DNA from: Quillaja saponaria
Lineage: Eukaryota; Streptophyta; Magnoliopsida; Fabales; Quillajaceae
Length of the DNA: 64,000 nucleotides
Reading direction: 5' to 3'
Assembly (NCBI GenBank): GCA_029379385.1
Contig: CM055611.1
Coordinates: 17,678,062-17,742,061, forward strand
In this document: one piece after another, positions 1,072 through 53,719 of the stretch
How positions within the stretch are numbered: the stretch's first letter is position 1
How the letters are laid out: each line of letters starts with the position of its first letter
Program-made: the position numbers and the translations under genes
Notes under the pieces: generated by a model
Told to the model about the DNA's origin: nothing
Database searches by the model: none
Seen by the model: only the letters and a program-made list of their open reading frames with translations

Positions 1072-1389
1072 TAACCAAAAAAAAAAAAAAAATTGAAACA
1101 AGAAAAGCAGGTTGCAGAAATCACTTTCTCAAGAAAAAGATATATTTCTTTCTCTTATTTTTGAAACAAAGCACTAAATACAACTATATATAAGAAGTAT
1201 GAATAACAAAACCTACTGATTCAACTCTTAAGATACTGCCACTAACTAGTAACAATCTGCACTAATGTAGCAACTATCTCATAACAGTCTCTTTTATCAA
1301 TTAAAGAGGTTGACTTATTCAAACTAAAACAAATTAGCTAGAGTGAAAACAAGAAAATAGCAAATCAGTAAGATGTACTAATTTTGACA
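1072..1389 (-). repeat. 3' LTR of the Copia element (left copy)
   Basis: This is the left LTR, 318 bp, matching 9092-9409. On the minus strand it begins TGTCAAAATTAG and ends near GGTTA, so the ends are TG...TA rather than TG...CA. It is directly flanked by ATAGG at 1067-1071. Confidence 0.92.
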
Positions 1390-1399
1390 ATCCCCTTTA
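1390..1399 (-). other. Polypurine tract of the Copia element
   Basis: On the minus strand CTAAAGGGGAT abuts the LTR start TGTCAAAA. Position and composition fit the plus-strand primer of a Copia element. Confidence 0.75.
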
Positions 1400-2387
1400 G
1401 TGCAATCTTACATCAGTCACCCCAAGTGCATTTCTGAACGACACAAACCTCTCCTTTGTAAAAGCCTTAGTAAAGATATCTACTACTTGTTCTCTAGTTC
1501 GCACACTTTCTAAAACAATTTTTTGCTCAAGCACCTTTTCTCTGATAAAGTGATGTTTAATTTCGATGTGTTTCTTGCAGGCATGAAACACAGGATTTTC
1601 AGCAAGCTTTATGGCACTTTCATTGTCACAACGAATTGGAACAGTGTACTCAACTCCAGCATAAATATCTCTGACAATAGTCTCAGCCATATACACTTCT
1701 TCGCTGCCATTGTTGCTGCTACATACTCAGCCTCTGTGCTAGAAAGAGCTACTAGTCTGCTGCTTTTTACTACACCATGAAACTACTGTTGAATTACTAA
1801 AACAATACCCAGTAGTTGAGCGGCGATCATTCACATCACCTGCCCAATCTGCATCAACAAAGACACTAAAAAAAAAGGTATCACTTTTCTTATACCCATA
1901 TTTTAAGGTTCCTTTCACCTAGTGCTAGATCCTTTTTGCTGCATCCAAATGTGGAACTTGTGGCTTGTCCATAAACTGAGATATGACTCCAACTAAAAAG
2001 GCAATATATGGTCTTGTGATGGTTAAATAGATCAAACTTCCTACAAGCTGTCAAATTTTTTTTTCATCATTTAGTAGCTTTTCTTCATCCTTCTTCAGTT
2101 TCATATTTGGTTCCATAGGAGTTGACATTGATTTGGACCCCCCCCCCCCAATGCTAAAATGCTCCAGTAAGCTCTTAGCATAATGCTCTTGAGATACAAA
2201 ATACCCATCTTCTAATCTCTAAACATCCAAACCAAGGAAGCATCCAATTTCACCCAAATTTTTCATCTCAAACCGAACTGCCAAATCATCTCGTAAGCAT
2301 ACAATTCCATCATTATCATCCCCCATGATAACCATGTCATCCACATACAACAATACTATTATGCTGTGATGATCCTCAAAACACGAG
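1397..2387 (-). pseudogene. Copia RNase H and C-terminal reverse transcriptase remnant
   Basis: The frame at 1397-1696 encodes the Copia RNase H end, with CDNESAIKLAENPVFH and KHIEIKHHFIREKV motifs. Further 5' on the minus strand (about 2320-2350) the RT catalytic box YVDDMVI is readable. Stops and frame changes separate the two. The upstream RT portion lies beyond the nested insertion, at 5917-6290. Confidence 0.85.
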
Positions 2388-2392
2388 ATATG

Positions 2393-5300
2393 AATAAATT
2401 CAAGTTATAAAATAATAAATATGAAAACAAATTAGTTAAATGGTACTATAAGGAAATTGTTATGGTCTGATAATGTAGTGTAGTATAGAAAATTTTCGCC
2501 ATTAAGTAATATATATTATATTATAACTTGATATACATATGTACTGAAATAAAAATAAAATTTCACCACATTTGGGGTCAAATTAGAGCTAGATTTTTAT
2601 TTTGTAAATTTTGAGAGAAATAAAAGCTAGCATAGGGATGAATTACGTACCACCACAAATTTAGTATAAAGAATATATATATATATATATTAGGATGACC
2701 ACAAATTTCAATCAACATAAAATTTTATATTTTATCATTTTACATTTTGTCTTTCTCTCCACTGTATTACACCGACCTATTTAGAACCTTCCAGGTTTTT
2801 TTCTCTCTGTCGTGCCACTCTCTTGCTTCGCCTCCTGTTTTCTGCTGGATCTAGCTGTGAGCTCCTCCATTTTTGGCATCTTAACCTAACTGTTTGGAGA
2901 GTCATGTCCTTCCTTTTCTCTTGTAGGCCATAGGAGCTTTATTTTGGAGGAGCTAGGGAGCTGGATTGCAACTCCGTTGGCAGCAACTTGCTGCTATATC
3001 CTCCCCTAGTTTTGCTTCTTATTGTTCTGCCTTCAGGAAATTTCATGGCAGCCAAGCTCCCATCTCCTCCATACCATAAATTTTCTGCACTTCTAACCTT
3101 AACAGGCCGTGCAGCCTTGTGAGGTAACTCTATCTCTCATCTTCCTTTCTTCTCAATCATGAAGCAGCCACTAGAATTGATTAGACTCTGCCATGGATTT
3201 ACTGTTATGGTAGCTGAATTGTTTGTCTCTTCTCTTTGTTATTTAGCTGTGTGGTTGGTGAATAATGGTTAGCAGAAGGTGCTGCTACAATGAATTAAAG
3301 AAGGCAACCGTGGGTTCCTTAGAAGCTTGAAGTGTGAACTTCTAACCAATCTTTGTCTTTAGGTAAATTTCTGTACTTATAATTGTGGTTAAGGATGTAA
3401 AACAAATAGCTGGAGAGGATGAAAATTTCTTGAAGACAGTGATCATTTGTAAATTGCTTGTGTTGTTGGAAAATAGGTGTTGTTAAGTTTTTGATTTCCT
3501 TGGTTAATGAAACCAAATTTTTTTAGCTTGAAGTGGGGAAATACAAGTAATGGAGGATTAGGTATTAATTGTTGTTAAATCTTTACAATTCAAGTTTGTA
3601 GGAATTCTTGAATGATTAACTTAACTTTAAAGTTAGTAAAAGAAATATAAATAAAATACATTCTAGGGATTTAGTTTAACTTTTATGGATAGATATACAT
3701 ATACATAAGAAATGAAGTCGGTTATCCTTACTGTGTTTATTAAAAAAAGAAAACCTCAAAGAAAATAATCGTAGTGTATTGATTAAAACCTAATATATTT
3801 GATTCTTGGTAATTAATGTTAGTTAAATCAAAGTCTAATAAAGTGTTGGATGATACGAGTAAAGGGGTTTTGAAAGGATGCAGGGGACAGAGTTCATAGG
3901 GTAACATAAATTCGGTATTTCGAGGGTCTTCAGGACAGAATTAAATTAAGAGTTCAAAAGATAAAATGTATCTTATAGTCTTGAAATGATGTCTGCAAAA
4001 TTTCGTAGCTTGATTCCAAATATTTTGTGAGTTATAGCTATTAGACTCTGGGTAGGTCAAGCAGGATTCGTAGTGCCCCGTTTTTGGTTCATGTAAGAAA
4101 TTGAGTGGGTTAATGACAGATTTTAGAAAAATTTTCTAAATAAGAAATATATATATATACTTGTATACTAATAAACCCAATAAACGGAATTGGATTTTGT
4201 TTTTCCTAGGGAAAGTTATGTTCAATTAACTACGGTCAGGTCAAAGTTGTCAAAAATCTTGCGTGTTACTAGAATTTGATGCAACTTCAAACAATAAACT
4301 GTATTGATAGACATATCCAAAAATTACAAATGATATACCATTATAAAGTTACATGTGTCTAGTATTTTATAAATTTTACGAAACTGAATTCGGAGTTTCA
4401 CGGAAAAAAAATATGACCGTTAAAGTGGACATTGGTCCAAACATCAAGTTGGGACAGCTTTAACATTTTTAACACACTAAATGCTTTCTATTTTTTTTAA
4501 TGGTTTCTCCTATTATATGCTTTGTCAAGATATTTAAAAGCCCTCTTCATTGATAACCTTATCGCCTAAAGTCTAATCCATATTAATTGATATGTAATAG
4601 TTTAAAGGAAAACTTTCATAAATAAACCTATATAAGTTGAGATATTAGTTTAGCAAGTAAAAGATGATAACAATAACGTTTATCAACTAAGTAGTATTTG
4701 AAATTATGAATTTCAGTTCCGGATTCCAATGTGAACCTGATGAGACGGATGGACACAAGTATGAGTGACGAATGAAATGGGTAACAGGTGAGTGGTTAAT
4801 TGCTGCCTTTAGGGGCTAGATTAATATGTGTGATTATATGTTTATTTGAATACGCATGATATGTGAAAAATAAGCCAGTAAAGTACTTCAGTAATGTATT
4901 TGAATTATGTTGTTTGAGATTGATGGTTGTGCTTGACATTGATTGTGGTTGATAAGGGCCAACTCGTGAACATTTTCTGGAAAATGATTTTTATCTCTGA
5001 AAATAAGATCCAGGTGCACCTAGGATACCCTGATTTAAAAGCATGAGAAATCCTGATTCTGATGAATATATTTTTAAATTAAGTGCTCAGCCCTGGTGGG
5101 ATGGATTTGTGTACGGAGATTAATTTGGTGTGCGGGCGCGTAAATGCCCGGCAGGGGGGTGCTATTGGTGTGCGGGGCTGGGTCACTCGTTGGCCTTTTG
5201 GTTGTTTTGTTTTATATCATTGTTCTTATAAATTTGTGATCTTGTGTATCATATGAATTGTGAATTTGTGAAACCTACAATGTGCACGTGTGATGTGAAA

Positions 5301-5911
5301 CATTATGTGAATCATGTTATATGATGTTAATATATATGTGATATGCTTGTGTTGTGTGATGCTAGTACCCTTTGGGTACGATTTTCCACTCACTGAGTCC
5401 GTAGGACTCACTCCTTTCCTGTGGTTATATTTTTTTTAGTAGCATGACTTCAAAAGAAGTTAACCGCTAATATGAGATTTTGCTAAGGATTTGACGACAA
5501 GGTATGTCTCAGAATCTCATACTTGAAGTTAAGGATGAAAGTTTGCAGTCACATTAGAACTGTGGGTGTCAAATGTGACATGATGTAATATTCTAGTACT
5601 TGTTTTGTTGATGATGTGAACGGAGCAGAGCTCCTTATGGTCTTTATATTATGTTGAGTAATAAAAAATAAAAAAATTTACAGGACTGTATTTTAAGGCA
5701 TGTTCCATATTGTAATGGACCTCTGCCGAAATTTTCAGTAAATATGATTTGCTATAATCAACAAACTTTTAAATCTTAATTTTTGTCTTTATAATTTCTT
5801 GGTTTTATTCTTTGGTGAGTCAAGAGTCATGGTCATTTCTTATTTGAGTCAGGGTTACGGAGGTTTGGTTACCACTCCTCCGGCCAGTCATGCCTTCATG
5901 AGGGGTGTGAC
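2393..5911 (+). mobile_element. Nested 3.5-kb insertion in Copia RT, probably a solo LTR
   Basis: The insertion separates the two RT halves and is bracketed by the 5-bp direct repeat ATATG (2388-2392 and 5912-5916). It has no convincing coding capacity. The + strand ends in GGGGTGTGACA, typical of plant Ty3/Gypsy LTR ends. It also holds a CACTGAGTCCGTAGGACTCAC palindrome-like motif (about 5392-5412), seen in long plant LTRs. With TG...CA termini (2391-5912) the flanking repeat would not be exact, so boundaries are uncertain by about 2 bp. Part of it (about 3850-4000) resembles 32340-32470. The solo-LTR identity is an inference. Confidence 0.55.
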
Positions 5912-5916
5912 ATATG

Positions 5917-6300
5917 CGCTTCTCTAATTCTAGCTTAACAAACATACTAGAATCTAAATCAGAAATTTTAAAACTGCAGAAAGTAAGATATTGAGCAATC
6001 TTACCATACCATGCACGCGGGGCCTGTTTTAAACCATATAGCACCTTCTTGAGCCAGCGAACATGATAAGGAAATTGCTTGGAAACAAAGTCTTATGGCT
6101 GCTCCATGAATACATCACCATCTAGCTCACCATAAAGGAAAACATTCTTTACATCAAGCTGCCACAAATTCCATCCTTCAAATACTGCCAATGAAATAAT
6201 AGTTCTTAATGTTACCATTTTAGCAACTGGGCTGAATGTCTCTTCGTAATCCAACCCATAGTTTTGAGAAAAGCCATGGGCCACCAAGCAAGCTTTATAT
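5917..6300 (-). pseudogene. Copia reverse transcriptase, N-terminal part
   Basis: The frame at 6093-6287 reads [20 protein letters not shown] and [20 protein letters not shown]. The frame at 5917-6044 continues with LYGLKQAPRAWYGKI. These are hallmark Copia RT blocks. A frame break near 6050-6090 and the nested insertion at 5911 inactivate it. Confidence 0.9.
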
Positions 6301-6424
6301 CTGTTAATTATTCCATCCTTCTTTTTTTCAGCTTATAAACCCATTTACAGGTTATTGGCTTAACATCATTCGGTTTTGGCATAAGCTCCCATGTGTCATT
6401 TTTCAACAAAGCAGTTATTTCTTC

Positions 6425-7060
6425 TTACATTGCTGCCTCCCATTCTAGAATACCTTTTGCTGCATCATAGCCTGATGGCACACTGTTGTCTACTGCTCCT
6501 ACAAAAAAATATGAAGTGATCGAAGACTGATTTATATTAACTTCATAATCTTTCAAATATCCAGGCTGCTTTTTCTCCCTAGCTGATCTTCTGGAAGTAT
6601 CATGTATTTCATTGTCAGTGCTTGAAGAACTTAACCTACTGTCAGAACATTCAGCACTCCCTCTTGCTGTAGAACCTTCTTGGCTAGTGAAGTTTTCATC
6701 ATTGTGAGAAAATAACTCAGAGTTGATTGAATCATCAACCTTTTCTGTTAGGTGCAAATTGCCGTCAACAGTTAACCATTCTTGATTGTAATACATTTAT
6801 CAAATACTACATTTCTTGAAGTGACACATTTCTTCGTTATTGGATCCATGCACCTCCGTCCTTTCTTATTTACATTAAAGCCTACAAATAAACATTTTTT
6901 TGCTTTGGGATCCAATTTAGTTCTATTACTTTTTGGAACATGAACAAAACAAATAGAACCAAACACACGAATATGACTCACATCAGGCTTTACATTGTAT
7001 AAAAGTTCAAAAGGAGATTTAATACCTCACCATGCAGGAAGACAGTTGATCACATAACAT
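6425..7060 (-). pseudogene. Copia integrase C-terminal / IN-RT linker region
   Basis: The frame at 6772-6981 carries RVFGSICFVHVP and KKCLFVGF, the conserved block after the Copia integrase core. The frame at 6425-6796 is the acidic, Ser-rich linker before RT (RRSAREKKQPGYLKDYE). The two overlap in different frames, so a frameshift lies near 6780. Confidence 0.8.
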
Positions 7061-7080
7061 GCACATATCATTACTTCAAC

Positions 7081-7464
7081 CTAAAGCTCTCGAGGAAGAT
7101 TCTTTCCATGTATCCAAGACAAATTGACTTCTGAAAGATGAGCTAATTTTCTTTCCGCAACCCTATTTTGCTGTGGAATTTTAGGAGAAGTCATCTGCCT
7201 ATTTATGTCTTTAGCGTCATAGTGTTGGAGGAACTCGTGTGACATGAATTCACCTTCATTATCAGTGCTCAAGCATTTAATCTTTAATTGAAATTGCTTT
7301 TTAACTACATTTTCAAATTCCATAAACTTTGAGAATGCTTCATTTTTATCATTCAGAAAGTATACCCATGAATACCTGGAATAGTCATCCACAATGATCA
7401 TCATGTATTGAAATCCACTATAGCTTTGTGTTCTAGTTAGCCCCATCAAATATGCATGAACCAA
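7081..7464 (-). pseudogene. Copia integrase catalytic core
   Basis: The frame reads IIVDDYSRYSWVYFL, then CLSTDNEGEF, then QQNRVAERK. This matches the D-D-E layout of the rve integrase core (D in VDDYSR, D in STDN, E in VAER). It is part of a pol polyprotein that is no longer one frame. Confidence 0.88.
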
Positions 7465-7764
7465 TTCAAATGGATTCTTCTTGCGATTTGACGAGTTCTT
7501 GAAAGGAAGAATTTGAGATTTTCCATATTAACACCCTTGGCAAACTACACCTTTTAGAAAATCTTTTATAACTGTTATTGGAGGAAATTTGCTGCGACAT
7601 TTGGTATCCCACATGGCCTAATCTTGCATGCCAAATCGATGCACCATCATTTCAGCTTGTTCTCTCCACATAAGCTTCAGTTGCGGACATAACAAACAAA
7701 GAGTCCTTTTTCTCACCAACAAGAAGAATATCAGCAACTATATTCTTTATATTTTCCAGAATTT

Positions 7765-8070
7765 TCACACCTTTGGGACCAAATAACACATATTTTCCTG
7801 AATCAGTGATTTGGAAACAAGATTTTTCTTTAATCCTAGTACATGGTAAACATCATCTAAAACCATATCTTTCTCCTCCAACCCTTCTGTTTTGATACTT
7901 ACACTACCTTCTTTCTCCACAGGATGCACAGAGTTATCTGCTGTAATAATTGCTCGATCTCCAAGGTGTTGGTGCAGCTCTGAAAACAGTGAATCGTTTC
8001 CAGTCACATGGTGTGAGTAGCCAGAGTCAATGACCCATTCTTTCTCAAAGTTAATAGAGGATGGAATCAC
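7765..8070 (-). pseudogene. Copia aspartic protease region
   Basis: The frame has WVIDSGYSHHVTG. Copia proteases carry D-S/T-G followed by an HM/HV block, so the catalytic DSG is present. It sits between the zinc knuckle (gag) and the integrase, as expected. Confidence 0.82.
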
Positions 8071-8115
8071 GGCACTTGTCTTTGCTTAAGTTTTAGCAAG
8101 TATGGTTGAGAGACA

Positions 8116-8959
8116 CTACTCCCATTGTAATTGATCATAAGGTTCATCAGTCACCACATTTGCACTCTCGTCCCCAAGTTTCACACGACAATTCCTGTTG
8201 ATATGACCAAGCTTTCCACACCTATAACACTTCACATTCCTCCATCTAAGCTGGTTGTCCTTCATTGTAGGCAAATTTTCTGCAACATTCTTGTAATTTG
8301 ATTTAGAATCCTCTTTTGAAAAGAGAACATCATCTGCTTTAGGTTTTAAGGACATTTGCTTTGCGAAGGCTTCTTGATTAGCAAGCTAATTCTTTAACTC
8401 TTCCACTGAAGATTGACTAGCCCACCCTTGTATGGAGGTTACAAATGGCATGTATCCATTTCGGAGACCACAGATAAGATACCGCCGTAACCATGCTTCA
8501 CTAATAGGCTCTTTCACATCCTACTCTGCAATTTCAGAACACAAATTTTTAACCTTCAAAAAATAATCTGAAATTGTCATACCTCCTTGCACTAACCCTT
8601 GCAAGCTCATTCTCAAGCAACTGTAGCCTGGCTGTGTTTTTCTTGATAAATAACCTCTTTAGAGTTTTCCACACTTCCTTTGGCAACTCCAAATCACAAA
8701 TATGATCAATGTGCTCCTTGCCAACTGACATTCTCAAGACAAAAAGAGATTTCCCACACTTGATCTTCCATTTCCGCCGTGATTCAACATTTTCGAGGAT
8801 ATCTTAGGGAGTAATTGAATCATCACCGTCAACTAGATCTCATAGGTCTTGACCTTAAAGGAAGACTTCCATGCATAATCGCCAATAATTGTAATTTATG
8901 CCTACAAGCTTCTCCATACCAAAATTGGTTAAGCTACTTCCACTGTTGTTGAAATCCAT
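8116..8959 (-). pseudogene. Copia gag with CCHC zinc knuckle
   Basis: The probable start is the ATG at 8957-8959 (MDFNNSGSS...). It is followed by YNYWRLCMEVFL (the usual NYxxW gag block), then pieces at 8549-8737 (LPKEVWKTLKRLF). A knuckle CYRCGKLGHINRNC lies at about 8180-8225. The pieces are in different frames with stops between them, so gag is dead. A run of about 35 A at 8981-9015 lies just upstream. Confidence 0.85.
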
Positions 8960-8977
8960 CTTTACACCAAGATACAG

Positions 8978-9016
<39 letters not shown>

Positions 9017-9078
9017 GGTTTTCTGCACACCTGACACAAGAGAAAAAGAAAAAAAAAACTAGCTACCAATTCCAACTT

Positions 9079-9091
9079 GGCTTTGATACCA
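9079..9091 (-). other. Primer binding site (initiator tRNA-Met type)
   Basis: The minus strand reads TGGTATCAAAGCC directly next to the 5' LTR end. It differs by one base from the usual plant Copia PBS TGGTATCAGAGCC, complementary to the 3' end of initiator Met-tRNA. Confidence 0.88.
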
Positions 9092-9409
9092 TAACAAAAA
9101 AGAAAAAAAATTTGAAACAAGAAATGCAGGTTGCAGAAATCACTCTCTCAAGAAAAATATATATTTCTTGCTCTTATTTTTGAAACAAAAGCACTGAATA
9201 CAACTATATATAGGAAGTATGAATAACAAAACTTACTGATTCAACTCCTAAGATACTGCCACTAACTAGTAACAACCTACACTAATGTAGCAACTATCTC
9301 ATAACAGTCTCTTTTATCAAGTAAAGAGGTTGACTTATTCAAACTGAAACAAACTAGCTAGAGTGAAAACAAGAAAATAGCAAATCAGTAAGATGCACTA
9401 ATTTTGACA
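9092..9409 (-). repeat. 5' LTR of the Copia element (right copy)
   Basis: This is the 318-bp partner of 1072-1389. It ends at the TSD ATAGG (9410-9414). Confidence 0.92.
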
Positions 9410-9414
9410 ATAGG

Positions 9415-20045: not shown

Positions 20046-22310
20046 CTACTCCTTAAGCCTTCTTTTCTTTTCCTTTTTTAATGAAATAAGCCCACAAATT
20101 TTCAAGAAAATTTTGCTTCTTTTGATTCTTCTTTATCTTGTTGGCAGCTTTCTTTGATTCTCCATTTCTTTCTATCTTAATTTTCTTCCCCGGGTGACTG
20201 AAAGAGGATGCCTCCTCCTTCATTAGTAAAAGTAAAATATACTCACATTTTTATCAATTTTATTTCTTATATATATATTTTTATTATTATTTTTTGGTAA
20301 TGTTACCCTCGCTCTAACACCATTAATAATTTAAATAAAAATTATGACTTAAATTTAAATTTTTTGTCATGCGTGCTAAGTTAATAAAAATAAAAAAAAT
20401 TATTTCTCACTCTTATTCATCACCACCCTCTGACATTATAAATTAGATTTTGTGATGATTTAGATATTTTAAAATAAAATTAATAAAAAAGATAATACCT
20501 TTAAAATGAATTAATTAAAACATGATAGTTTTAGGATGAAGTTGAAAAGAAATATATACTTTAAAAACATATTTTTTTTGTCAACTTAGCATATACGTGC
20601 ATGATACTAAATATCTATATCCATATTATTATAAAAACCAGAAGGTTATTGTGGTCTCTTACTATTTAACATACACATTAAAATTATTTAGAAGTAAAAT
20701 TTATTCAATCATTTAATAACTACTAAATAATAACCTCCTTGCTTTCCTACTCTCATACTCTCTTCCACCCTCCCACTCTCTTACTCTCTCTCACCCTCTC
20801 ACTCCCCTCTTCTCTCCTGTATCAATTTAAGCCAAAACAACAATTTTCATCAAAATTTAATAGTGTTAGCTTGAAAAAAAGATATTACTAATTTAGTTTT
20901 TCAATTGCTACTGGTTAGGGATAGAGCCACCAATAAAGCAAAATTATTGAGTTAAAAGCATGATTACCTCTTTTTTTAACATATAAATTAGTTTGAGTGG
21001 CACACTAACTAAAGTTTGATTCCCTATGTCTTTGTGCGTTATCACGATGTTTTCTTAAAGATGCTTAATTCATTCAAATAATTATACAAAAAGAAGAAGT
21101 AGACGACATATGTGTTAGATATAAAATCACTCCTCGGGCCACGCTTGAATTTCAAACTAGAATTCAAATAATTTTATTCTTATTCAGTTATTCTTCTCTT
21201 TTCCCGCAAAACCTATTCTTCTCTTTTTTCCCATGTGATGCTGCAAGCCCTTCTCCTTTCCCTTGGCTATATTCCCTCCCCTTTCCTTTTCTTTATTTTT
21301 TTAATTTTAAAATCTTAAGATAAGTCACCCTAAGTCTTATTTTTTTTAATATTTTAATTAATTTTATATAAAAAAATTATATTATCACTAACTCATATTT
21401 TTAAAATATTTTTTTCATTCTGCAAGACTCTTTTCCCATGTGATGCCTGCAAGCCCTTCTCCTTTCCCGTGGCTATATTCCCTCTTTATTCTTTCTCGTT
21501 ATTTTATTAATTTTAAAATCTTAAGAAAAGTCACCTTAAGTCCTCTTTTTTTTTTTTTTTTTCAATATTTTAATTTATTTATAAATAAAATTATATTATC
21601 AATAACTATTATTTTTACAATATTTTTCCCATGCTGCAAGACTCTTTTTCCATTTGATGCTGCAAGCCCTTCTCCTTTCATGTGATTTTATTCTCTCTCC
21701 TTTCCTTATCTTTATTTTTATAATTTTAAACTCTTAAGAAAAGTCACCATAAGTCTTTTTTTTTTTCAATCTTTTAATTAATTTTATATTAAATTATATT
21801 ATCAATAACTCTTATTTTAAAAATATTTTTTAAATAAATCTTAAATTTTGAATTGAAACTTTTTATATCATTTTTATATTTAATTTTATATTTTAAATTT
21901 TAATAATTAAGTAAACTTATTTTTTTTAAATATATTAATTAATTTATAAAACTAAAATTAATTATTTAATAAGTTGAGAAATGGAGTAATATAGGTTCTG
22001 ATTACTTCAAAATTGTTGAGATTGTGATCAGTAAAACAAGAAACTTAAAACTCATTGCAAACTACAAACTGGAAACTGGTTATGCGAGTCTTTTACTCAT
22101 TATCTCCACCAACAAATAAAATATATTCCACGTCGGAAGTTCTCTGGCCAAAAGTAAAAGTTAGCAATAATTCCTTTTTCTTTTTCTTTTTTTTGGTACA
22201 GTTAGTTAGCAATAATTTAAGCAAATAAGAATGATGTAATTGCAGCCGTGTGAAGCTTCCCATTCTTCTTCTCCAAAACCAGAGATCATATTCTTCTTCC
22301 ATAGATATCT
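20046..22310 (+). promoter_or_regulatory. Upstream/promoter region of the intact NLR-DC1 gene
   Basis: 20060-20620 is a copy of the upstream module also seen at 12600-13080 and 34300-34800. 21050-21350 matches 15950-16350. Within 21230-21840 a unit of about 210 bp, starting TTCCCATGTGATGCTGCAAG, occurs three times in tandem (about 21230, 21432 and 21648). The 3' end (21940-22040, TTCAAAATTGTTGAGATTGT) matches 33700-33780. No TATA box can be singled out in this AT-rich sequence. Confidence 0.55.
21230..21840. repeat. Three tandem copies of a ~210-bp unit upstream of the NLR
   Basis: Each unit has CCCATGTGATGCTGCAAGCC or a close variant, a CTTCTCCTTTCCC-rich part, TTTTAAAATCTTAAGA, AAGTCACC-TAAGTC and an AT-rich tail. 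The third begins TTCCATTTGATGCTGCAAGC. The array lies 0.6-1.2 kb before the start codon. Confidence 0.75.
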
Positions 22311-22450: not shown

Positions 22451-25400
22451 ATGGAGATTGTTATTGCCATTGCTGCAAAAGTTGTGGAATACACTGTTGC
22501 TCCTATTGGACGTCAACTGGGGTATCTTATTTTCTACCGCAGAAATGTTGAGGATCTCAGAATCCAAGTTCAAAGGCTGGAGGAGACCAAAGAGAGGGTC
22601 CAACGGGACGTGGATGCTGCTAAAAGGAATGGTGAAGAAATTTACATTGATGTGCAGAACTGGCTTATCAAAGTGAATGAATTGATTGTAGAGGCAAGTA
22701 AGTTGTTTCGACATGAAGGCCTAGCAACGACGGGGTGTTATTCCACTGGTTCCTGTCCAAATGTATTGTCCCGCCACCAGGTTAGTAGGAAATCAACCGA
22801 GTTGTTGTTGGAAGCTACCAAAATCCAACAAAGGGGGGATTTCACTTCAGTTTCTTCCAATCCCCCACCACTCCCCTTGGCTGCAACATTAGTTACTAAA
22901 GATTTCAAGGCCCTTGACTCGAGGACAAAAACTTTAACAGAGATTATGGAGAAATTGAAGGATTCTACAATTCAAACGATCGGCGTGTGGGGGTTGGGTG
23001 GCGTGGGTAAAACCACACTAGCTAAACAACTCGCCAAGGAGGTTGAGGAGTCCAAGATGTTTGTGACGGTGGTCATGGCAACAGCCACTGTGAATCCAGA
23101 CGTGAGGCGGATTCAAGGTGAACTAGCAGATCAATTGGGTTTGATATTTGAACAGGAGACAGAAATGGGAAGAGCAAATCGGTTGTGGCAGAGGATAAAT
23201 CAAGAAAAAAGTATTCTTATTATTATTGATGATATATGGGGTGAATTTGAATTGCAGGCCATAGGAGTTCTGTTAGGGGATGGCCATAAGGGAAGTAAGT
23301 TGTTGTTGACATCTAGAAGTTATGATGTGCTAAAGCGTGAGATGGGCATTCAAGTGGGATTCCGACTCGAAGTGTTAGAAGAAGATGAGGCGTGGAGTTT
23401 ATTGGAAGAAATGGCAGGAGATACTGTAGAAGATCCCAATGTGCAGCCTATTGCAATGGAAGTGGTGAAAAGATGTGCGGGTTTGCCCGTTTTGATTGCT
23501 ACTGTTGCCAAGGCCCTGAAAGATGAGGAATTATATGCTTGGAAGGATGCCTTGAAACAACTGGAAAGATTTGACAACGAAGGGGTGCATGAAAAAGTTT
23601 ATTCAGCTTTGGAGTTGAGTTACAATCATTTAAAAGGTCAGGAAATGAAGTCACTGTTCTTGCTTATATCTCTTCATGGACAACCTTTCGTTTACAAGTA
23701 TGACTTGTTGATAATTAGCGTGGGTTTGGGTTTATTCAAAAATGTGGAGACATTGGAGGATGCAAGGAACAGACTTGATAAATTGACGAAGGACCTCAAG
23801 GCATCTTGTCTTTTGATTGAAAACCACAGAGAATGGGTCCAAATTCATGATTTAGTTCGGGAGACCGGTTCTTCAATTGCAAAAAAAGACCAACTATTTC
23901 ACATTGGTCTTGAATCTGAATCAAAAGGCTGGCCAAGGAAGGATACATTTGAAAATTTTCGTGGACTCTTGTTGTCTGTACGCCATCAAAGTGATCTTCC
24001 CGAAAGGTTGGAATGTCCGCTGCTCCAGGTATTTGCATTAAGATGTCAAGATCATTTGAAAATTTCATATTCTTTTTTTGAAGTGATGAGAGAAGTGAAG
24101 GTTTTATGTTTATATAGAATGACGTTAATTTTATCACCACCTCTCGTCCTTCATGGATTGAAGTCTCTTCTTGCTTTATACTTATATGAATGTACCTTGG
24201 AAGACATAGCAATAGTTGGAGAATTAAGCCACCTAGAATTTCTGAGTGTTCGTTCGTGTAACCTCAAGCAACTACCCTGTGAGATAGGAAGACTTGGTCG
24301 CCTAAAGATGTTGGATCTGGAAGGTTGTAATAGCCTTGAAGTGATTCCACCAAGAGTTATATCAAACTTGATTGGTTTGGAAGAGTTAAATATGGAACGT
24401 AGCTTCTCCAACTGGGAGGTTGAAGGATGCAGCAATGCAAGCGTAGCTGAGTTAAATGAATTGCCTAGATTGAGGAGTTTATGCGTTCATATTCCTTATT
24501 CTGAGACCTCTTCCACTAATATGAACTTATCGTTTTTTGAAAAGCTACAAATGTTCAAGATTGAAATCGGACGGAGGTCAGAGTTACGTAGCATATATGA
24601 TTATATAGAGCGTAGCAGATATGATGAGTACTCCAAAATGCTGACATTGGAATTCTGTAAATTGGAGAGTCAGGTCAGAATTTTGGTAGAAAAAGTTGAT
24701 TATTTGGACTTGTATGAAGTGAAAGGTGTCAATAATGTTTTCCATGATCTGAACGCAAAAGGTTTTTCTCGATTAAAGTCTCTTAGGGTCTCAAAAAATG
24801 ATGATACTGAATGCATAGTTAACTCTAAAAGCTTGAATCATCCCATTCTTGCTTTTCCAAACTTGAATGACATGCAGCTTACCAATTTGAATAATTTGGT
24901 ACATATATGTCATGGCCCATTCACTGAGGAATCTTTTTGCAAACTAAGAGATGTCACTGTGTCCGACTGTGTAAGATTGAAAAATGTGTTGTCAGCTTCC
25001 ATGGGAAGAGTCATTCCACAACTGGCTCACTTACGTGTTTCAAGTTGCAAGTCGATGGAGGAGATTGTACTTTTGAAAAGAGAGGTGGAGAATCTTGACC
25101 CAATGTTCGTTGACATTATCGAGTTCACTCAGTTACAGACTCTAGTGATGTGGGATGTACCTGCGCTAATTAGTTTCTGCTCAATGGAGAAGACATCATC
25201 TACATCTCAAGGGATAAATTGTCAGTCACTTTTCGGCCACAAGGTATGCTTTTTATCATCTCCATATTGTGATTATTTATGAGTTCCCGTTATGAATAAA
25301 TAATTCTTAGGATAAAAGAAAAAGAATTTTTTTAGTTTTTATTTTGCATTTTATTTTTAATTTTGATATTGAATTACAAGAGATCTTAAAATTTCTAACA

Positions 25401-28400
25401 AACGTAGTCAAATAATCAGTTAGGTGGAGGAGTTAACTTTGCATTCAGTATCATCATATTTTCAATAATATGTCACCGGCATTTCTAATTCTTGAATTGC
25501 AAAATTGTAATTTTGCTGAATAACATCATTCTTTCAGTAATAACTTTGCATTTCTAATTCTTTAGCCACTGAATTGTATAATTGTAATTTTACTGATTAA
25601 CATCATACTTTCACTAAATGTATATAATACAATTAATAATAAAGAATGAAATGAATAACATATTCACACATTAATTTAACACTAGTCAATTTATTTTATT
25701 TTATTTTATTTTCCAAAAATATTAATTTTCAGCTAAGATTAATATAATCATTGTCACCAATTAATTATTTATTAATTCAACTCAATAGAAATATGAGTAT
25801 GTATTAATTTATTATATATATATCAATATTTTTTAAGAAATATAATGGTAAACAAGTTTGGATTGATTAGAGATGATTAAGATAATTTAGGGTGATTTGG
25901 TTGAGATAGAAGTTGCATTGATTGACACAAATTTGAGGGTAGGATGTTAATTGGTACTGATTAGGGGTAGTCGAGGTTGATTGATACTGCTTAGGGATAC
26001 GTGCTGTTAATTAGTGACTGAGGATGATCAAAAAGGTGATTGAAGTTTTTTTAACTGTCCGAGTAATTTGTCTCAATTCATACCGCCCCATTCAGACAAC
26101 AAGTTTCCCTTCCTTATTTTCTGACAGTTTGCTTGAATTTTAATGATTGCATATGTGCAGGTTTTATTTCCTATGTTGGATGCTTTGGAAATAGGTGGCA
26201 TAGATAACTTGAGGAATGTGTGGGATCACCAAATCACCTCAAATTCTTTTTCTAAATTAAAACGTATAAGAATTAGTGGCTGTGCTAAACTAGTGACCAT
26301 TTTCCCATATAATCTTATCAGAAACTTTTCGAGTTTAGAAATTCTTAAGATTGAGAATTGCAATTCGGTAGAAGAGATTTTTGATCTTCGAGAGCAACAT
26401 GATGAAATAACACAGGCTAATGTTGTGGGGATTTCTTGTCATTTGAAATATTTTCATTTACAAGGATTGCCAAAATTGAAGCATATGTGGAGTGGAGATT
26501 CTCAAAAAATTCTGAGAATATTTCAAGATCTACAAAGTGTAAAAGTTGAAAAATGTGAAAACCTGAACTATATCTTTCCTGCCTATTTAGTGAAATGTCT
26601 CTTGCAACTAGAGGAGCTTGAGATTATTTCTTGTGAGGTAGATGAAATCGTTGCTAAAGATGAAGGATCAAGTGAAGTGATCAGGTTCCATTTTCCTCAA
26701 TTGAAGCGGATTGTAATAAAAAGTCTACCAAAACTCAAGAGCTTCTACTCAGGAGTGATTGACACTTTGGAGTGTCCAATGATAAGGGAGCTACGCGTGT
26801 CTGACGTGGGAAATGAAACATTGAATTTTTCATTCCAGGTCTCGGACAATCAAGGAGATGCACAACAACTGTTTTCTACAAGAAAATTGTTCCTTCTAGC
26901 AGAAAAGGTATGCATATTCATCATGATCACATAAAATAAATAATCAAATTACAAGGTGATCGATAATGAACCTATTTTTTTGAAGATTATATATGAGAAT
27001 TGAAATAATTTTTTATTGTATTTGTTACTCTAGTTAAAAAAAAAAAAAAAAAAACGCAAAAGGATGAATGTTGAAAGATATCTACCAGTAAATAGTGCAA
27101 GATTTATAATTGAAAAAGTAAGAAAAATCAATATTTTATAGTTTAGCTTTCGAAATAATCTTGTAACAAGTTTGCATGGTCTATAGTCCATACTTTTAAC
27201 TCTTTTTTTTATTTTTTTTTATTTTACTTTTTGAATAAGTCATTGTATACATAACAATACATATGGTACAAATTTGACCTATGTCCAAGCCCATTAAATA
27301 GTTGACATATGGACTTGAAAACTATGATTAATTATACAAATGTCTCCCTTGCAATTAATAGTATAAACAATAATCTTGCTTCATTTGTTTTTTTCTTCAT
27401 CACCTTTCTCCTGTAATCCAGGTGATTGGCCCCAACCTGGAGAGTCTATGTCTGGGAGGCAAGACAGCCACGATTTTGTTTTTGAATGATCAATTTCAAA
27501 ATTTGTTGCACAACCTTGAAATTCTACAGGTATTTGACTGTTCTAGCTTGAGAAGCATGGTACGTACGGCATATTCATCAGCATCTTTTCAGAATCTACA
27601 TACTTTAGGACTGGAGTCTTGTGGTGAACTAATCAATTTAGTTACATTCTCCACTGTTAAAAGTACTCTAGTACGACTCAAGAAATTGGCCATAACTAAT
27701 TGTGGGAAGATAAAAGAAATAATATCATCCACTGATCATCAAGGACAAGATGTTGAAGATGATGAAGTTGCCTTCAATCGGTTGGAAAGTTTGACTCTTT
27801 GTTGTCTGCCAAACTTGAAAGGCTTCTGTTTGGAGAAATGTACCTTGAAATTTCCACTCTTGAAACAATTGTCTGTGGTAGGGTGTCCCGAATTGAAGGC
27901 CTTCACTCCAGGTATCTTGATCGCACCATTAGTCCGAGGAGTGGGGGAGAGTAAATATGTAGGAAATTCTCAACGTTGGGACGGCGACCTCAACAATACT
28001 ATAAAACAGATGTTCATAGACATGGTATGTTTTATTTCTTTCTTAATTTGTACGATATTGGGTCGATTTTGATTTTCATCTTCCGAAGTTTATGGTAAAC
28101 ATTAAAATGAAAATTAAATATTAAACATGCAACTTAAATAATCTTTTATACAATCTAAATGTCACTATATATATAATTTATACATTTTGATGAAAATTGA
28201 TGACATCGGTTACTATTTTTGAATGACCTAACTAATTTCTTTTATCTTGCTTTCTCACTGACCTTGAACTAAACAAGAAGGTAAACTTTCCTTTATAAAT
28301 AATTACAGCCTTTATCATCCTTAGTGATATTTGTGTAAGACCATTATATCTTTAGTTTGGAAGAATCAAGTTCCAAATTGTTAAAATAAATTTTATTTTT

Positions 28401-28701
28401 AGTTAAATTAACTTTTTATGTTTACTTTATTGTTTGAAATAATTATTCTTTTTCCTTATTTACTGTTTTAACTTTCTTGTAGCAAGAGAAAATTAGAGCA
28501 AAAGGATGTCCAAGAACTATCAAGCATCCACTACACGAGGAGCATCAACTTGTTCTGGTTCGGGGACATTTTGGTTGTGATGGGTGTAAAGAATGCTGCC
28601 GTGACTGGTCCTATTCTTGTGGAATATGTGAATTTGATTTACATCTGAGTTGTGCTTTGGAGGGCAGTGATAAACCCATTAACGAAGCTGGAAACAAGTA
28701 A
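22451..28701 (+). CDS. Intact CC-NB-ARC-LRR immune receptor with a C-terminal DC1 domain
   Basis: This is a predicted intracellular NLR receptor of the At4g27190/RPS5-like CNL class. Exons are 22451-25243, 26161-26907, 27422-28024 and 28483-28701. All junctions are phase 0 with GT-AG borders, giving 1453 residues. The CC region is about residues 1-130 (DVQNWLIKVNEL at 67-78). NB-ARC carries the P-loop GLGGVGKTT (181-189), kinase-2 ILIIIDDIW (255-263), RNBS-B GSKLLLTSR (281-289) and CAGLPVLI (342-349). IHD (465-467) stands in place of MHD. LRRs run from about 520 to 1380 over three exons. Residues 1382-1453 form the DC1 domain. The start is the MEI Met, which aligns with block 2. The frame opens 15 codons earlier, but that stretch contains the probable leader acceptor. 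Retention of the last intron would end the protein 16 codons after exon 3, without DC1. Nucleotide-switch function is from family knowledge, and the ligand is unknown. Confidence 0.9.
22991..23017 (+). promoter_or_regulatory. Candidate miR482/2118-type target site over the P-loop
   Basis: The nucleotides encoding GLGGVGKTT (GGTGGCGTGGGTAAAACCAC within it) are the region that miR482/miR2118 family miRNAs usually cleave in plant NLR transcripts to start phasiRNA production. This is an inference from family knowledge. No miRNA sequence of this species is available here. Confidence 0.3.
25244..26160 (+). other. Intron 1 of the NLR-DC1 gene
   Basis: The donor is AAG|GTATGC and the acceptor CATATGTGCAG. 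It is 917 nt and AT-rich. Nothing else is recognised in it. Confidence 0.8.
26908..27421 (+). other. Intron 2 of the NLR-DC1 gene
   Basis: The donor is AAG|GTATGC and the acceptor CTGTAATCCAG, length 514 nt. Its 3' part (27290-27420) is conserved at 61615-61741, which identifies block 3 as a copy of this gene. Confidence 0.8.
28025..28482 (+). other. Intron 3 of the NLR-DC1 gene (joins LRR to DC1)
   Basis: The donor is ATG|GTATGT and the acceptor ACTTTCTTGTAG, length 458 nt. The same donor and acceptor are kept at 50894/53719 (block 2) and 62335/62771 (block 3), and the acceptor at 790 (block 0). The internal landmark CTTGAACTAAACAAGAAGG (about 28263) is found in all four copies. Confidence 0.82.
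28483..28701 (+). CDS. DC1 (C1-like zinc-binding) exon of the NLR, intact
   Basis: The 72-codon exon begins QEK and ends at TAA. It has the DC1 pattern: KHPLHEEH, then GCDGC, WSYSCGIC and FDLHLSC. The putative ligands in the full protein are His1396/1399/1402, Cys1413, Cys1416, Cys1427, Cys1430, His1435 and Cys1438. DC1 domains are plant-specific relatives of C1 (diacylglycerol/phorbol ester) domains. They usually occur in multi-copy DC1 proteins, some linked to stress and defence. One domain at the end of an NLR fits the integrated-decoy idea, which is inference. The stop TAA sits inside GTAAAT, a possible donor. Confidence 0.87.
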   Translation, partial: QEKIRAKGCPRTIKHPLHEEHQLVLVRGHFGCDGCKECCRDWSYSCGICEFDLHLSCALEGSDKPINEAGNK

Positions 28702-40560: not shown

Positions 40561-40790
40561 TCATTAAAATATATTTTTTGAATTTAAAATACCTATCGAT
40601 TTTAAAAATAACAATAGAGTACTAAATTCAAAAATCACAAGTTTTTATTAATAAACATAAATGACAAATCAATTCAAGATTTTATAGTATCAAATTTGTT
40701 TACATTATAAAGTTCAAACAACGACAAACTAAAACTAATGTCGTGCTAAATCAACATCCATGTCTTGATCACGTGATTTTTCATCCTGAG

Positions 40791-40944
40791 TGATTTTTCA
40801 TCCTGAGATTGTTGAGCCCCCGAAGATGAAATAATAGCCTGCAGTGAAACAATATTATAGGAATCAGTGATTTTTCATCCTGAGATTGTTGAGCCCCCGA
40901 AGATGAAATAATAGCCTGCAGTGAAACAATATTATAGGAATCAA
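40791..40944. repeat. Perfect 77-bp tandem duplication
   Basis: The unit starting TGATTTTTCATCCTGAGATT and ending TATTATAGGAATCA occurs twice with no visible difference (40791-40867 and 40868-40944). It is preceded by a partial third start. Identity suggests a recent event or an assembly duplication. Confidence 0.88.
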
Positions 40945-45463: not shown

Positions 45464-46422
45464 ATGGAGATTGCTATTGCCATTGCTGCAAAAGTTGTAG
45501 AATACACAGTTGCTCCTATTGGACGTCAATTGGGGCATCTTATTTTCTACAAAAGTAACGTCAAAAATCTCAAAATCCAAGTTCAAAGGCTAGAGGAGAC
45601 CAAAGACAGGATCCAACGAGATGTGGATACTGCAAAAAGGAATGGTCGGGCAATTCACACTGATGTACAGAACTGGTTAAACAAAGTGAATGAATTGATT
45701 GGAGAGGCAAGTAAATTGTTTGGAGATGAAGGCCGTGCAATAACGGGGTGTTATTCCACTGGTTCCTGTCCAAATGTTTTGTCCAATCACCGGATAAGCA
45801 GGAAATTGAACAAGTTGTTGCTGGAAGTTACCAAAATCCAACTGAATGGGAATTTGGGTTCAGTTTCTTACAAAATCCCACCACCCTCGTTGACTGTAAC
45901 GTTAGTTACCAAGGATTGCAAGGCTCTTGACTCAAGGACAAAAATTTCAACAGAGATTATGGAGAAATTGAAAGATTCTACTATTCAAACGATCGGGGTG
46001 TGGGGGTTGGCTGGTGTGGGTAAAACCACACTAGTCAAACAAGTTGCTAGACTGGCTGATGGGTCCAAGTTATTTGATAAGGTAATCATGGCTACTGCCA
46101 CTGTTAGTCCAGATGTAAGGCGGATTCAAGGTGAACTAGCAGATGCATTGGGCTTTAGATTTGACGAGGAGACCGAAGTGGGAAGAGCAAATCTGTTATG
46201 CCAGAGGATAAGTCAGGAAAATAACATTCTTATTATTATTGATGATATATGGGGAGGTTTTGAGTTGGAAAGAATAGGAGTTATGTTAGGGGAAGGCCAT
46301 AAGGGAAGTAAATTGTTGCTGACATCTAGAAGTCATGATGTGTTAAAGCGTGAGATGGGCATTCAAGTGGGATTCCGACTCAAGTCTTACAAGAAAAGGA
46401 GGCTTGGACTTTATTTGAAGAA

Positions 46423-48302
46423 ATGGCGGGAGATACTGCGAAAGCTCTTAATGTGCAACCTATTGCAATTGAAGTGGTAAAAAGATGTGCAGGTTTGCCT
46501 GTTTTGATTGCCACTGTTGCTAAGGCCCTGAAAGATGCGGCGTTATATGTTTGGAAGGATTCCTTGAAACAACTGGAAAGATTTGACAAAGATGGGATGC
46601 ATGCCGAAGTTTATTCAGCTTTGGAGTTGAGTTACAACCATTTAAAAGGTCAGGAAATCAAGTCACTGTTCTTGCTTATTGCTCTTCATGGACAACGTTC
46701 TGTTAGTAAGCATGATTTGTTGATAATTAGTATGGGCTTGGGTTTATTCAAATATGTGGATACATTGGAAGATGCAAGGAACAGACTTAACAAATTGACG
46801 AATGACCTCGAGGAATCTTGTCTTTTGATTAAAGACGAGAGAGAGATCGAGAATGTCAAAATTCATGATTTAGTTCGGTATGCTGGTTCTTCAATTGCTG
46901 CAAAAGACCAACTATTCCGTACTGATATTGAATTTGAATCAAAAGAATGGCCACGGAAGGACATACTTGTAAAATATCGTGGACTCTTGCTCTCTGTACA
47001 CCATCAAAGTGACCTACCCGAAAGGTTGGAATCTCCGCAACTCAAGTTATTTGCATTAAAATGTCAAGAGGATCATTTGAAAATTTCAGATTCCTTTTTT
47101 GAAGTGATGAGAGAAGTGAAGGTTTTATGTTTTTATGAAATGAAGTTAATTTCATCACCACCTCTCGTCCTTCATGGATTGAACTGTCTTCGAGCTTTGT
47201 ACTTGTATGAATGTACCTTGGAGGACATATCTATAGTTGGAGAGTTGACAAATCTAGAAATTCTTAGTGTTCGTCAGTCTGACCTCAAGCAACTACCCAG
47301 TGAGATAGGAAGACTCCATCGTCTAAAGATGTTGGATCTGATGTATTGTAAGAGCCTTAAAGTGATAACACCGACAGTTATATCAAACTTGATTGGTTTG
47401 GAAGAGTTAAATATGGAAGGTAGCTTCATCAACTGGGAGGTTGAAGCTGGATGCAACTCGAAAAGCTACAATGCTAGTCTAGGTGAGTTAAAGGAATTGC
47501 CTAGTTTGAGGAGTTTATGCATTCGGATTCCAGATGCTCGGACTTTATCGACTGATATCTTCTTGTTCTTTGGAAAGCTACAAAAATTCAAGATTGAAAT
47601 TGGAGAGAGGACATCTTGGCCGTCCATATACAAGTTCTCACAAATACTGACAATTAAATCCTCTGGTTCTTGTATCATTCAGTCAGAGAATTGGATCCGA
47701 ATATTGCCAGAAAAAGTTGAATATTTGAAGTTGGATAGAGTGAATGGGGTGAAGAATGTTTTCCTTGATATGAATGCAAAAGGTTTTTCACAATTAAAGG
47801 TTCTCAAGGTCTCGAATGATGCTGAAACTGAATGCCTAATTAACTTCATAAGCTCAAAAAATCCCAGGCATGTTTTGCAAAGCTTGGAAAAATTGGTCCT
47901 CAAACATTGGAATAATTTGGTACATATATGTCGTGGCCCAATAACAGAGGAATCCTTTTGCAAACTAAGAATTGTAAGGGTGTATGGATGTCAAAAGTTG
48001 AAAAGTTTGTTCTCCTTTCCCATGAGTAGAATCATTTCACAACTTGTTGAAATACAAGTTTCAAATTGCGTTTCCATGGAGGAGATTGTATCGTTGGGAA
48101 GAGAGATGGAGAATCATGACCCAGGGCTCGGTGACATTGAGTTTGCCGAATTACGCTATTTAAAGATAATGGGTCTACCCGCGTTAATTAGTTTTTGCTC
48201 AATGAGAAGGATATCATCTGTATCTCAAGGACTATCCCATAAACTACCAATTGACACTGAAATCGAAAAGATGGATGCCACGGGCAAATATGAAAATTCT
48301 AG
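46423..48302 (+). pseudogene. NB-ARC C-terminus and first LRR part of block 2 (second frame)
   Basis: This frame continues the block 1 alignment after the 1-base deletion: MAGDTAKALNVQPIAIEVVK onwards, then CAGLPVLI. IHDLVR again stands where MHD is expected, followed by LRRs with NLEILSVRQSDLKQLPSEIG. Apart from the frameshift it remains open for over 620 codons, so the break is young or the copy was under constraint until recently. Confidence 0.85.
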
Positions 48303-51129
48303 GTATGTTCTTAATATTTGCATTTTAAATTAAATTAATAAATTTAAATATCTCCATATAGATATGAGTCAATACAACGTAAGATTAAGGCTCTTATTAT
48401 TTTTTTTATACAAAAGCTTATGCTTAATTTAAGGGTCATAGATATGACTGAGGTGTAATGTGTGTGACTTATAAACTAATTTATATAAGTAGGGAATCAT
48501 AATATTTACAATATGTGTAGATATAATCCGTGTCTACTTCTTGAGGCAGACAAAAAACCCATGTTTATCTATAAAAATGAATGGTGGATTTTGCTATAAA
48601 GTATTATAAATATCTATGATTCTCACTCAGTCGAGTGGATAGAGATCTATTGAACCCAGAGGCTACAACCCACCAGGCCACCACTGCCACATACTTATAT
48701 GAAACAAATTAATCCAACCAATTTTTTGTTTTTAGTGTGATGTCCTTGTCAAAGTACCCAATTTATAAACCAACGCTGAGTTATATGTCTAAGAAGCATT
48801 TGAGAATAATAATGGAGGTTGGAGGAATATATCTCCAAAAAATATATAAATCGTAGTTTTGTCATATATAAATAAAAGAGTCATTATTTAAACAGGTAAT
48901 TGGCAGCCAAATAATATTTAAATATGTCAATTAGAAAAACCTGAAAAAGGACAAATTTAATGTGTACTAATTAGTAGGTTAATTAGTGTGTTAGAATTGT
49001 TATATTTCTCTGTACCAAAAAAAAAAAAAAAACTCTTATATTTCTTGTGATTGTTTTTTTTTTTAGGTGAATTTCTTGTGATTGTCAGTACGTGCCCAAA
49101 TAAATACATAAGGTCATAATTATAAAAGTATATAATAATATTTTATTTTATTTTCACTCATCACACAGACAAGAAATGTATTACAACATTTCATTTTGTG
49201 AGCTTTTATATTTTTAACCATCCAAATGAGATAAATATTAAATGTCGATTTTTTCAATACTCTCAGCTCATTTCTTATAGTCTAGCGACTGGAATCCATT
49301 ATTTTGTTTCCCTTGAAACTCCAAAATAGACACTTAAAGCTTTGTTGCCCCAATTCATAAGTTTCCTGGCCTCCCCTATTTTCTGACATTTTGTTTGGAT
49401 TTTTATGATTGCATATGTGCAGGAAATAATGTTGGAGACTTCGGCAATAGAGCGCATGGATAAGTTGAGGACTGTGTTGGAACATCAAATCACCCCAAAT
49501 TCTTTTTTCAAAGTAAAATTGATAGAGATTAGTGATTGTGCTAAACTAGTGACCATTTTTCCATCTCACCTTGTTAGAAACTTTCAGAATTTGGAGACTC
49601 TTAAGGTTAAGAACTGCAATTCCGTGGAAGAGATTTTTGATCATCGGGAGCTACAGGATGAAAAAACACATGCCAATGTTGGAGGGATTTCTTGTCATTT
49701 GAGATATTTGAATTTACAAGGATTGCCAAAATTGAAGTATATATGGAGTGGAGATCCCAAAGGGGTTTTCAAATTATTACAAGATCTACAAAGTGTTGAA
49801 GTTGAGGAATGCAAAAACTTGAACTATATTTTTTCAGCCTCTGTAGCGAAATGTCTCTTGCAATTGGAGAAGCTTGAAATTATTTCTTGTGGGGTGACAA
49901 AAATTGTTTCTGAAGATGAAGGGTCAAGTGGAGTGGTCAGGTTCCATTTTCCACAATTGAAGCACATTAAATTAAAAAGTCTACCAAAAATCAAGAGCTT
50001 CTATCCAGAAGTAATGTTTACTTTGGAGTGTTCGATGTTAAAGGAGCTAGACATAGACGTGCTTGATAATTTTGTGTAATTATTTTAAAGATTATACATG
50101 AGAAGTGAAATAATTTTGTGTTGTGTTTGTCATCCCAACAAAACGAAAATAAAAACAAGAGCAAATATTTGAACCACTGAATAGTGCAAAAACTATGATT
50201 AATTATACAGAAGCATGTCTCCCTTGCAATAGTCTAAACACTAATCTTGTTTCATTTTCTTCTCTTCATCATCCGTTTCCTTTAATCCAGGTAATTGTCC
50301 CCAAATTGGAGAGTCTATGTCTTGGAGCCAAGACAACCACGATCTTATATTTGAATGATCAATTTCAAGATTTGTTCCGCACCCTTAAAATTCTACGAGT
50401 ATGTGACTGTTCTAGCTTTAGAAGCTTGGTACATACATCATATTCATCAACACTTTTTCGGAATCTACATACTCTAGAAATAGAGTCTTGTGATGGATTA
50501 ATCAATTTAGTTACATTCTCTACTCTGAAAAGTACTCTAGTACGACTCCAGAACTTGAGCATAAGGAATTGTGAGAAGATAGAGGAAATAATATCATCAA
50601 CTGGTCATCAAGTACAACATGTTGAAGATGATGAAATTGCCTTCAATCAGTTGGAAAGTTTGAAACTTTTTTGTTTGCCAAACTTGAAATGCTTCTCTAG
50701 AGAGAAATGCACTTTGAAATTTCCATCCTTGAAAGAAGTAATTGTGGTAGCATGCCCCAAATTGGAGGTGTTCTCTTCTGGTATTTTGGTTGCACCATTA
50801 CTCTGTGGAGTGATACAGAATAAATATTTAGAAGGTGAGAAACGTTGGGAAGTCAACCTCAGCAACACTGTAAAAGGGATGTTCATAGACATGGTATGTT
50901 TTCCTTCTTTCTTTCTTAATTTGAACAATATTTCGTTGATTTCGTTTTCCATTGTTAAACTTTACTTTCGAAACCAATCAATTAGTATAAGGATAGAGAA
51001 CAATAGACTTACATATAGTGTTAAGCCCTGAGCCTTAGAGACATGTTATTACATATATATTCTCCCAATTCCAATAAAATGCAACTGATTTTAGTATGAG
51101 TTTGCGATCAGAACATATATGGCTAGAAC

Positions 51130-51740: not shown

Positions 51741-51749
51741 GGAAAAATA

Positions 51750-53260: not shown

Positions 53261-53269
53261 ATAACCCAT

Positions 53270-53495: not shown

Positions 53496-53719
53496 GGAAG
53501 ATGGTGAAGTCAGTTACTATTACTGAAAGGCCCAAATAGGTTCTTTTTCTCGATTCCTCACTAGCCTTGAACTAAACAAGAAGAGTAACTTCTTTCTAAA
53601 TAAATTACGACCTTCATCATCCTAGTGATACTTGTTTAATTAACTTTCCTTTTTCTTGATTGCTTTAATTTTTAAAATTTTATTTCTTTTCTTTATTTAC
53701 TATTTTAACTTTCTTGTAG

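Follow-up and report, generated by a model that had tools for sequence, protein, structure and literature searches.

A nucleoredoxin-like DC1 domain in the last exon of an NLR gene family of Quillaja saponaria: a candidate integrated decoy

Domains integrated into plant nucleotide-binding leucine-rich repeat receptors (NLRs) point to host proteins that are under attack by pathogens. The locus described here, in Quillaja saponaria, raises the question of whether a receptor gene that ends in a DC1 zinc finger is a real fusion, where the finger came from, and what it may be for. The window, by which we mean the whole stretch of DNA analysed, comprises 64,000 nucleotides of contig CM055611.1 (assembly GCA_029379385.1, positions 17,678,062 to 17,742,061, forward strand), and the intact receptor gene occupies positions 22451-28701 of its plus strand. 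An earlier reading made from the letters alone, hereafter the sequence-only reading, had described an NLR with a dedicated DC1 exon at this place. The proposal considered here is that of a coiled-coil NLR (CNL) with a nucleoredoxin-type integrated bait or decoy; when the gain of the domain, its nucleoredoxin origin and its sensor function are taken together, we regard it as evenly poised between true and false.

The gene is composed of four exons (22451-25243, 26161-26907, 27422-28024 and 28483-28701), which when joined give one open frame of 1453 codons closed by a single terminal stop. The exon lengths (2793, 747, 603, and 219 bases) are each divisible by three, all junctions are in phase 0, and donors and acceptors are GT and AG throughout. 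Spliced, the gene encodes a protein identical in every residue to P0001, a public predicted "Disease resistance protein [Quillaja saponaria]". The four phase-0 exons running into DC1, as drawn in the sequence-only reading, are thus borne out by the frame, the borders and the public protein. A chance open reading frame was ruled out by this identity together with the conservation of the exon among paralogues, and on such sequence grounds the model of an NLR with an in-frame, non-canonical DC1 domain is judged to be real. A tandem array of a 213-base unit (21226-21830; 2.9 copies, 82%) is located about 620 bases upstream of the start codon.

Exon 1, with its GT donor at 25244 and phase 0 at its 3' end, encodes the N-terminal region at the coiled-coil position, the NB-ARC domain and the first leucine-rich repeats (LRRs). 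The NB-ARC domain (residues 159-392, positions 22925-23626) scores 135.3 bits in Pfam against a cut-off of 23.5 and carries intact-looking GVGKTT, IIIDDIW, GLPV, and IHDL motifs, which we take to be the P-loop, kinase-2, the motif at the GLPL position and an MHD-type motif, respectively. LRR_RPS2 matches with 260.3 bits across the whole of P0001; the repeats are spread over exons 1-3, with 157 bits in exon 2 and the last repeats in exon 3. No match to Rx_N was found in P0001 at E<=0.01, and the coiled-coil label is given by position and kin; the pattern for an EDVID-like motif had its sole match at an LRR position and is uninformative. No thioredoxin family is among the 17 matches of P0001 at E<=0.01, and of nucleoredoxin the tail alone is present. 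This architecture would be best explained by an RPS2/At4g27190-like CNL that carries an integrated domain at its C-terminus.

Exon 4 encodes 72 amino acids and a stop. The Pfam search of the translated exon that the sequence-only reading had proposed gave a match to C1_2 (DC1) of 30.2 bits (E 5.6e-7, cut-off 26), covering exon residues 16-58, which are residues 1397-1439 of P0001 and positions 28528-28656 of the window. On the whole protein the score drops to 24.1 bits, so that annotation based on the cut-off misses the domain, and DC1 is absent from the precomputed Pfam list of P0001; surveys of integrated domains that rely on Pfam cut-offs may undercount NLR-DC1 fusions. The complete set of Cys/His ligands noticed earlier was recovered, in that all nine positions common to the DC1 domain of At1g60420 are present in exon 4 as predicted zinc ligands. 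The suggestion of a lipid-binding type of domain found no such support: exon 4 has no match at E<=1 to the diacylglycerol-binding C1_1 model, for which the At1g60420 domain itself scores 17.3 bits, below the cut-off of 26.5. Lipid or diacylglycerol binding was rejected as a likely property for want of this match.

How firmly is this exon tied to the receptor? Intron 3 (28025-28482) is a GT-AG intron of 458 bases, and the join 28024|28483 has conserved counterparts in the same register in two other copies, 50893|53720 in one and 62334|62772 in the other; all three copies read ATG|GTATG at the donor and TTGTAG|CAAGAG at the acceptor. A join first proposed from consensus borders, phase and paralogue conservation therefore reappears with the same borders and register, and the joined form is likely to be transcribed. 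Exon 4 of the intact gene contains no Met and is immediately preceded by an in-frame TAG (28480-28482), which blocks reading into the exon from the upstream intron in that frame; a stand-alone DC1 gene was ruled out for this copy, in that frame, on these two features. The same TAG immediately precedes all four DC1 exons in the window, and the other three do carry a Met. Exon 3 read through its donor continues for 15 further residues before a stop, so that a transcript retaining intron 3 would encode a canonical CNL.

The three further DC1 exons in the window begin at 791, 53720, and 62772, the last two lying downstream of exon 3 copies with the same donor and register. Paralogue 2 (45464-53932, plus strand) has the same layout, with exon 3 at 50291-50893 and the DC1 exon at 53720-53932; it is broken, its exon 1 being split between two frames and its exon 2 frame ended by a stop, and one conserved His of its DC1 is replaced by Asp. 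Paralogue 3 (61742-62951, plus strand) consists of an exon 3 remnant reaching 62334, a piecewise match in a broken frame, followed by an open DC1 exon (62772-62951). A decayed DC1 exon of another copy (791-970, plus strand) has lost three of the nine shared Cys/His positions. Copies 1 and 3 retain all nine, as do P0002 and P0003, two other annotated Quillaja proteins that have the layout of P0001; DC1 identity among these three proteins is 59-63%. P0002, which is encoded outside the window, lies on a contig of the same length as that of P0001 (26.4 Mb), and P0003 on one of 21.7 Mb. The NB-ARC match of P0002 is split and short (64.4 bits), and this protein may represent either a gap in the gene model or a degraded receptor that retains DC1.

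Intron 3 is 458 bases long in copy 1, 2826 in copy 2 and 437 in copy 3, and alignment blocks in or across it show 74-82% identity between copies, including two purely intronic blocks at 77% and 80%. The intron is thus homologous between copies, which implies that the DC1 exon and its intron predate the duplications, and a single DC1 acquisition followed by duplication appears to fit best. The DC1 exons at 791 and 53720 are 75% identical (404-1050 against 53293-53981) in an alignment that begins a good distance upstream of the part held in common with the intact gene; an insertion in intron 3 and a subsequent duplication thus seem to be common to these two copies.

When was the domain acquired? 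A search with residues 1181-1453 of P0001, which reaches relatives sharing five-residue words, gave 34 proteins among 1132 candidates; an earlier search with the DC1 end alone gave 2 proteins among 5 candidates. P0001-P0003 alone match the unfiltered Quillaja DC1 profile, and none of the other 31 scores above 0 bits; the profile was built with P0001-P0003 included, so that their own high scores arise by construction and the finding lies in how low the others score. These 31 comprise 30 proteins from other plants and P0034, a Quillaja protein whose sequence stops after 16 matched residues of exon 3. The search for NB-ARC joined to DC1 in related genomes, suggested by the sequence-only reading, accordingly had a divided outcome: the architecture occurs in the three Quillaja proteins and in 0 of 30 non-Quillaja relatives, and C1_2 fusions are listed elsewhere (PMC4759884, in its fusion rows). 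In P0001 the motif DLNNTI stands immediately upstream of the exon 3 donor. Twelve of the 31 relatives without DC1 end 5-18 residues past their last match to the strict pattern DLNxTI and 15 have no match, while 38, 134, 500, and 533 residues follow it in P0009, P0026, P0007, and P0011, respectively; a variant near the end was seen by eye in P0005, P0011, P0019, and P0025. In a tree made by a quick method from the first 760 residues (600 for P0034) of 27 of the 34 proteins, with P0008, P0017, P0024, P0029, P0031, P0032, and P0033 omitted by hand, the four Quillaja proteins form a single clade with an SH-aLRT support of 100 and a stem as long as 0.5. The nearest neighbours of this clade come from Rosaceae and Rhamnaceae and not from the sampled legumes. 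A gain of DC1 on the Quillaja line would fit these observations, and loss elsewhere or unannotated exons elsewhere are possible alternatives.

As for the source of the domain, exon 4 has a sole close relative among solved structures (PDB), namely the DC1 tail of Arabidopsis NUCLEOREDOXIN 1 (NRX1; At1g60420, 1v5n), with 51% identity and a profile match of 79.8 bits, the next-best being 16.4. The two share a similar domain, the same nine Cys/His positions and a similar flank; in NRX1, however, DC1 belongs to a protein with three thioredoxin (TRX) domains, which the Quillaja receptor lacks. A search for a donor among DC1 proteins of 220-700 amino acids gave no candidate, and the nucleoredoxin origin therefore rests on the PDB comparison. 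We take a nucleoredoxin gene, at its 3' end, to be the probable source of the exon, in preference to another DC1 family.

The mechanism that we propose starts in the ancestor of the Quillaja cluster, where the last LRR exon would have had, from the outset or by later gain, a splice donor just past the conserved DLNxTI end and would have been joined to a downstream exon, most likely the 3'-terminal part of a nucleoredoxin gene, which encodes the C-terminal DC1 zinc finger. An effector whose binding to nucleoredoxin, or alteration of it, goes by way of the DC1 tail would then also bind the tail of the receptor, whereupon the intact NB-ARC would switch to its active state and defence would start. 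Gene structure, DC1 identity, intron 3 homology, closeness to the NRX1 domain, Cys/His positions and NB-ARC motifs are the observed basis of this scheme; effector binding and receptor activation are steps that we infer. Arabidopsis NRX1 knock-outs are described as showing autoimmune traits and higher resistance to P. syringae, and NRX1 as targeting catalases and shielding them from oxidation (PMC8154045); resistance to A. brassicicola is reported to be higher in the atnrx1 null and lower in overexpressers (PMC7730559). Since NRX1 in these accounts restrains defence, acting on it could benefit a pathogen, and a receptor with an NRX1 tail could sense that. The picture is not uniform, as cotton GbNRX1 is counted among Verticillium wilt resistance genes (PMC8456104) and wheat NRX1 is up on rust infection (PMC12688404). 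No effector binding NRX1 is reported in the available text of the nucleoredoxin-immunity papers cited. The most specific form of the proposal, a lineage-specific, expanded Quillaja CNL family with an NRX1 DC1 tail, in which pathogens target the zinc-finger tail of NRX1 and an integrated decoy guards it, is possible but in our view somewhat doubtful. If true, it would give the NRX1 DC1 a role in effector attack, for which no description was found in the literature searched. If the tail is a nucleoredoxin mimic, it would single out a specific target that has been little studied, namely the DC1 domain in a protein whose loss raises Arabidopsis defence.

Other readings of the tail have to be set against a nucleoredoxin-type bait. 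The tail may mimic another DC1 family, such as the large Cys/His-rich C1 proteins; we consider this unlikely. AtNRX1 was the one plant DC1 reference compared, which leaves room for such a family, and an effector-target table sets AT5G22355 (C1_2, C1_3) beside the avrPto group (PMC4759884, the table). Against it, a single nucleoredoxin sequence scores 56.8 bits on exon 4, in an alignment extending into the flank, compared with 30.2 for the family-wide C1_2 model, a gap that comes partly from the longer alignment. Of similarly low probability is a working tail that is no bait and serves to hold the LRR at rest, to self-associate, to localize the receptor or to recruit nucleoredoxin partners. The placement of DC1 directly past the last LRR, the retention of the Cys/His positions in P0001-P0003 and the occurrence in three annotated genes all agree with such a role, which has to face the fact that 0 of 30 non-Quillaja relatives in the set carry such a tail. 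That the DC1 exon is a separate neighbouring gene, joined by annotation error, is very hard to believe: the join is known from the gene model, and three of the four exons have a Met, but that of the intact copy is Met-less, the in-frame TAG precedes all four, and the exon 3-exon 4 borders are identical in three copies.

Whether the tail is under selection at all bears on the remaining rival, a neutral or decaying tail with many transcripts ending in intron 3 to give an ordinary CNL. The ratio of nonsynonymous to synonymous substitution rates (dN/dS; 95% bootstrap intervals in brackets) between copies 1 and 2 is 0.38 (0.27-0.53) for the coiled-coil and nucleotide-binding site (CC-NBS) part, 0.49 (0.33-0.74) for exon 2, 0.75 (0.48-1.20) for exon 3 and 1.10 (0.55-2.98) for DC1; DC1 gives 1.04 (0.46-2.71) between copies 1 and 3 and 0.79 (0.37-1.72) between copies 2 and 3. 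Arms-race selection on a bait would be expected to leave just such a kept Cys/His scaffold with a changing surface. What weighs against reading the ratios in this way is that relaxed constraint in the broken copies explains the DC1 values equally well, and that the intervals overlap. Neutrality can claim these values near 1, the two copies that lack Cys/His positions and the early stop on reading through intron 3; yet the nine positions persist in P0001-P0003 and copy 3 despite the low DC1 identity among the three proteins, and the splice borders are preserved in three copies. We hold a neutral tail to be quite improbable.

Compared with known systems, fusions of NLRs with C1_2/C1_3 were already listed in 2016 for B. 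rapa, O. sativa, and T. cacao (PMC4759884). They share the joining of an NLR to C1_2 (DC1) and differ in belonging to other plant families, with no Quillaja in those rows and with the kind and position of DC1 unspecified there. In a Haynaldia paper C1_2 stands under Os with a printed description that belongs to another domain (PMC8832786). Rice Pi-ta, termed an NLR-thioredoxin (PMC5819176), can be spliced to include a thioredoxin domain (PMC5067614, PMC9528084) and resembles the Quillaja receptor as a CNL to which splicing adds a domain of a redox-protein family, although that domain is thioredoxin, and in Quillaja it is a DC1 zinc finger without TRX. RGA5, as described in PMC4759884, likewise has a small bait domain at its C-terminus, but this is HMA and not DC1, and RGA5 acts with a second NLR, whereas none lies on the opposite strand of the Quillaja window (0 minus-strand against 610 plus-strand matches of 34 NLR proteins). 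The main texts of a 2025 survey of 305 genomes (PMC12787737) and of a soybean paper on NLR integrated domains (PMC10934728) do not name DC1 or C1_2, nor the former Quillaja. No report of this NLR-DC1/nucleoredoxin fusion was found in the literature on NLR integrated domains, DC1/C1_2, nucleoredoxin and Quillaja, as covered partly by best-ranked matches, titles, and main texts without supplements. The kind of fusion, even NLR-C1_2, is already known; what appears to be new is that the tail is nucleoredoxin-like and that it has spread through a gene family in Quillaja.

Elsewhere in the window no Rfam match was found. Positions 1076-9411 on the minus strand have the look of a decayed long terminal repeat (LTR) retrotransposon, with end repeats (1076-1391 and 9095-9411) that are 94.6% identical and an open reading frame (7081-7527) that matches an integrase core (rve) with 34.7 bits. 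At 40789-40943 a 77-base unit is tandemly duplicated in two copies with a 100% match, probably a very recent event.
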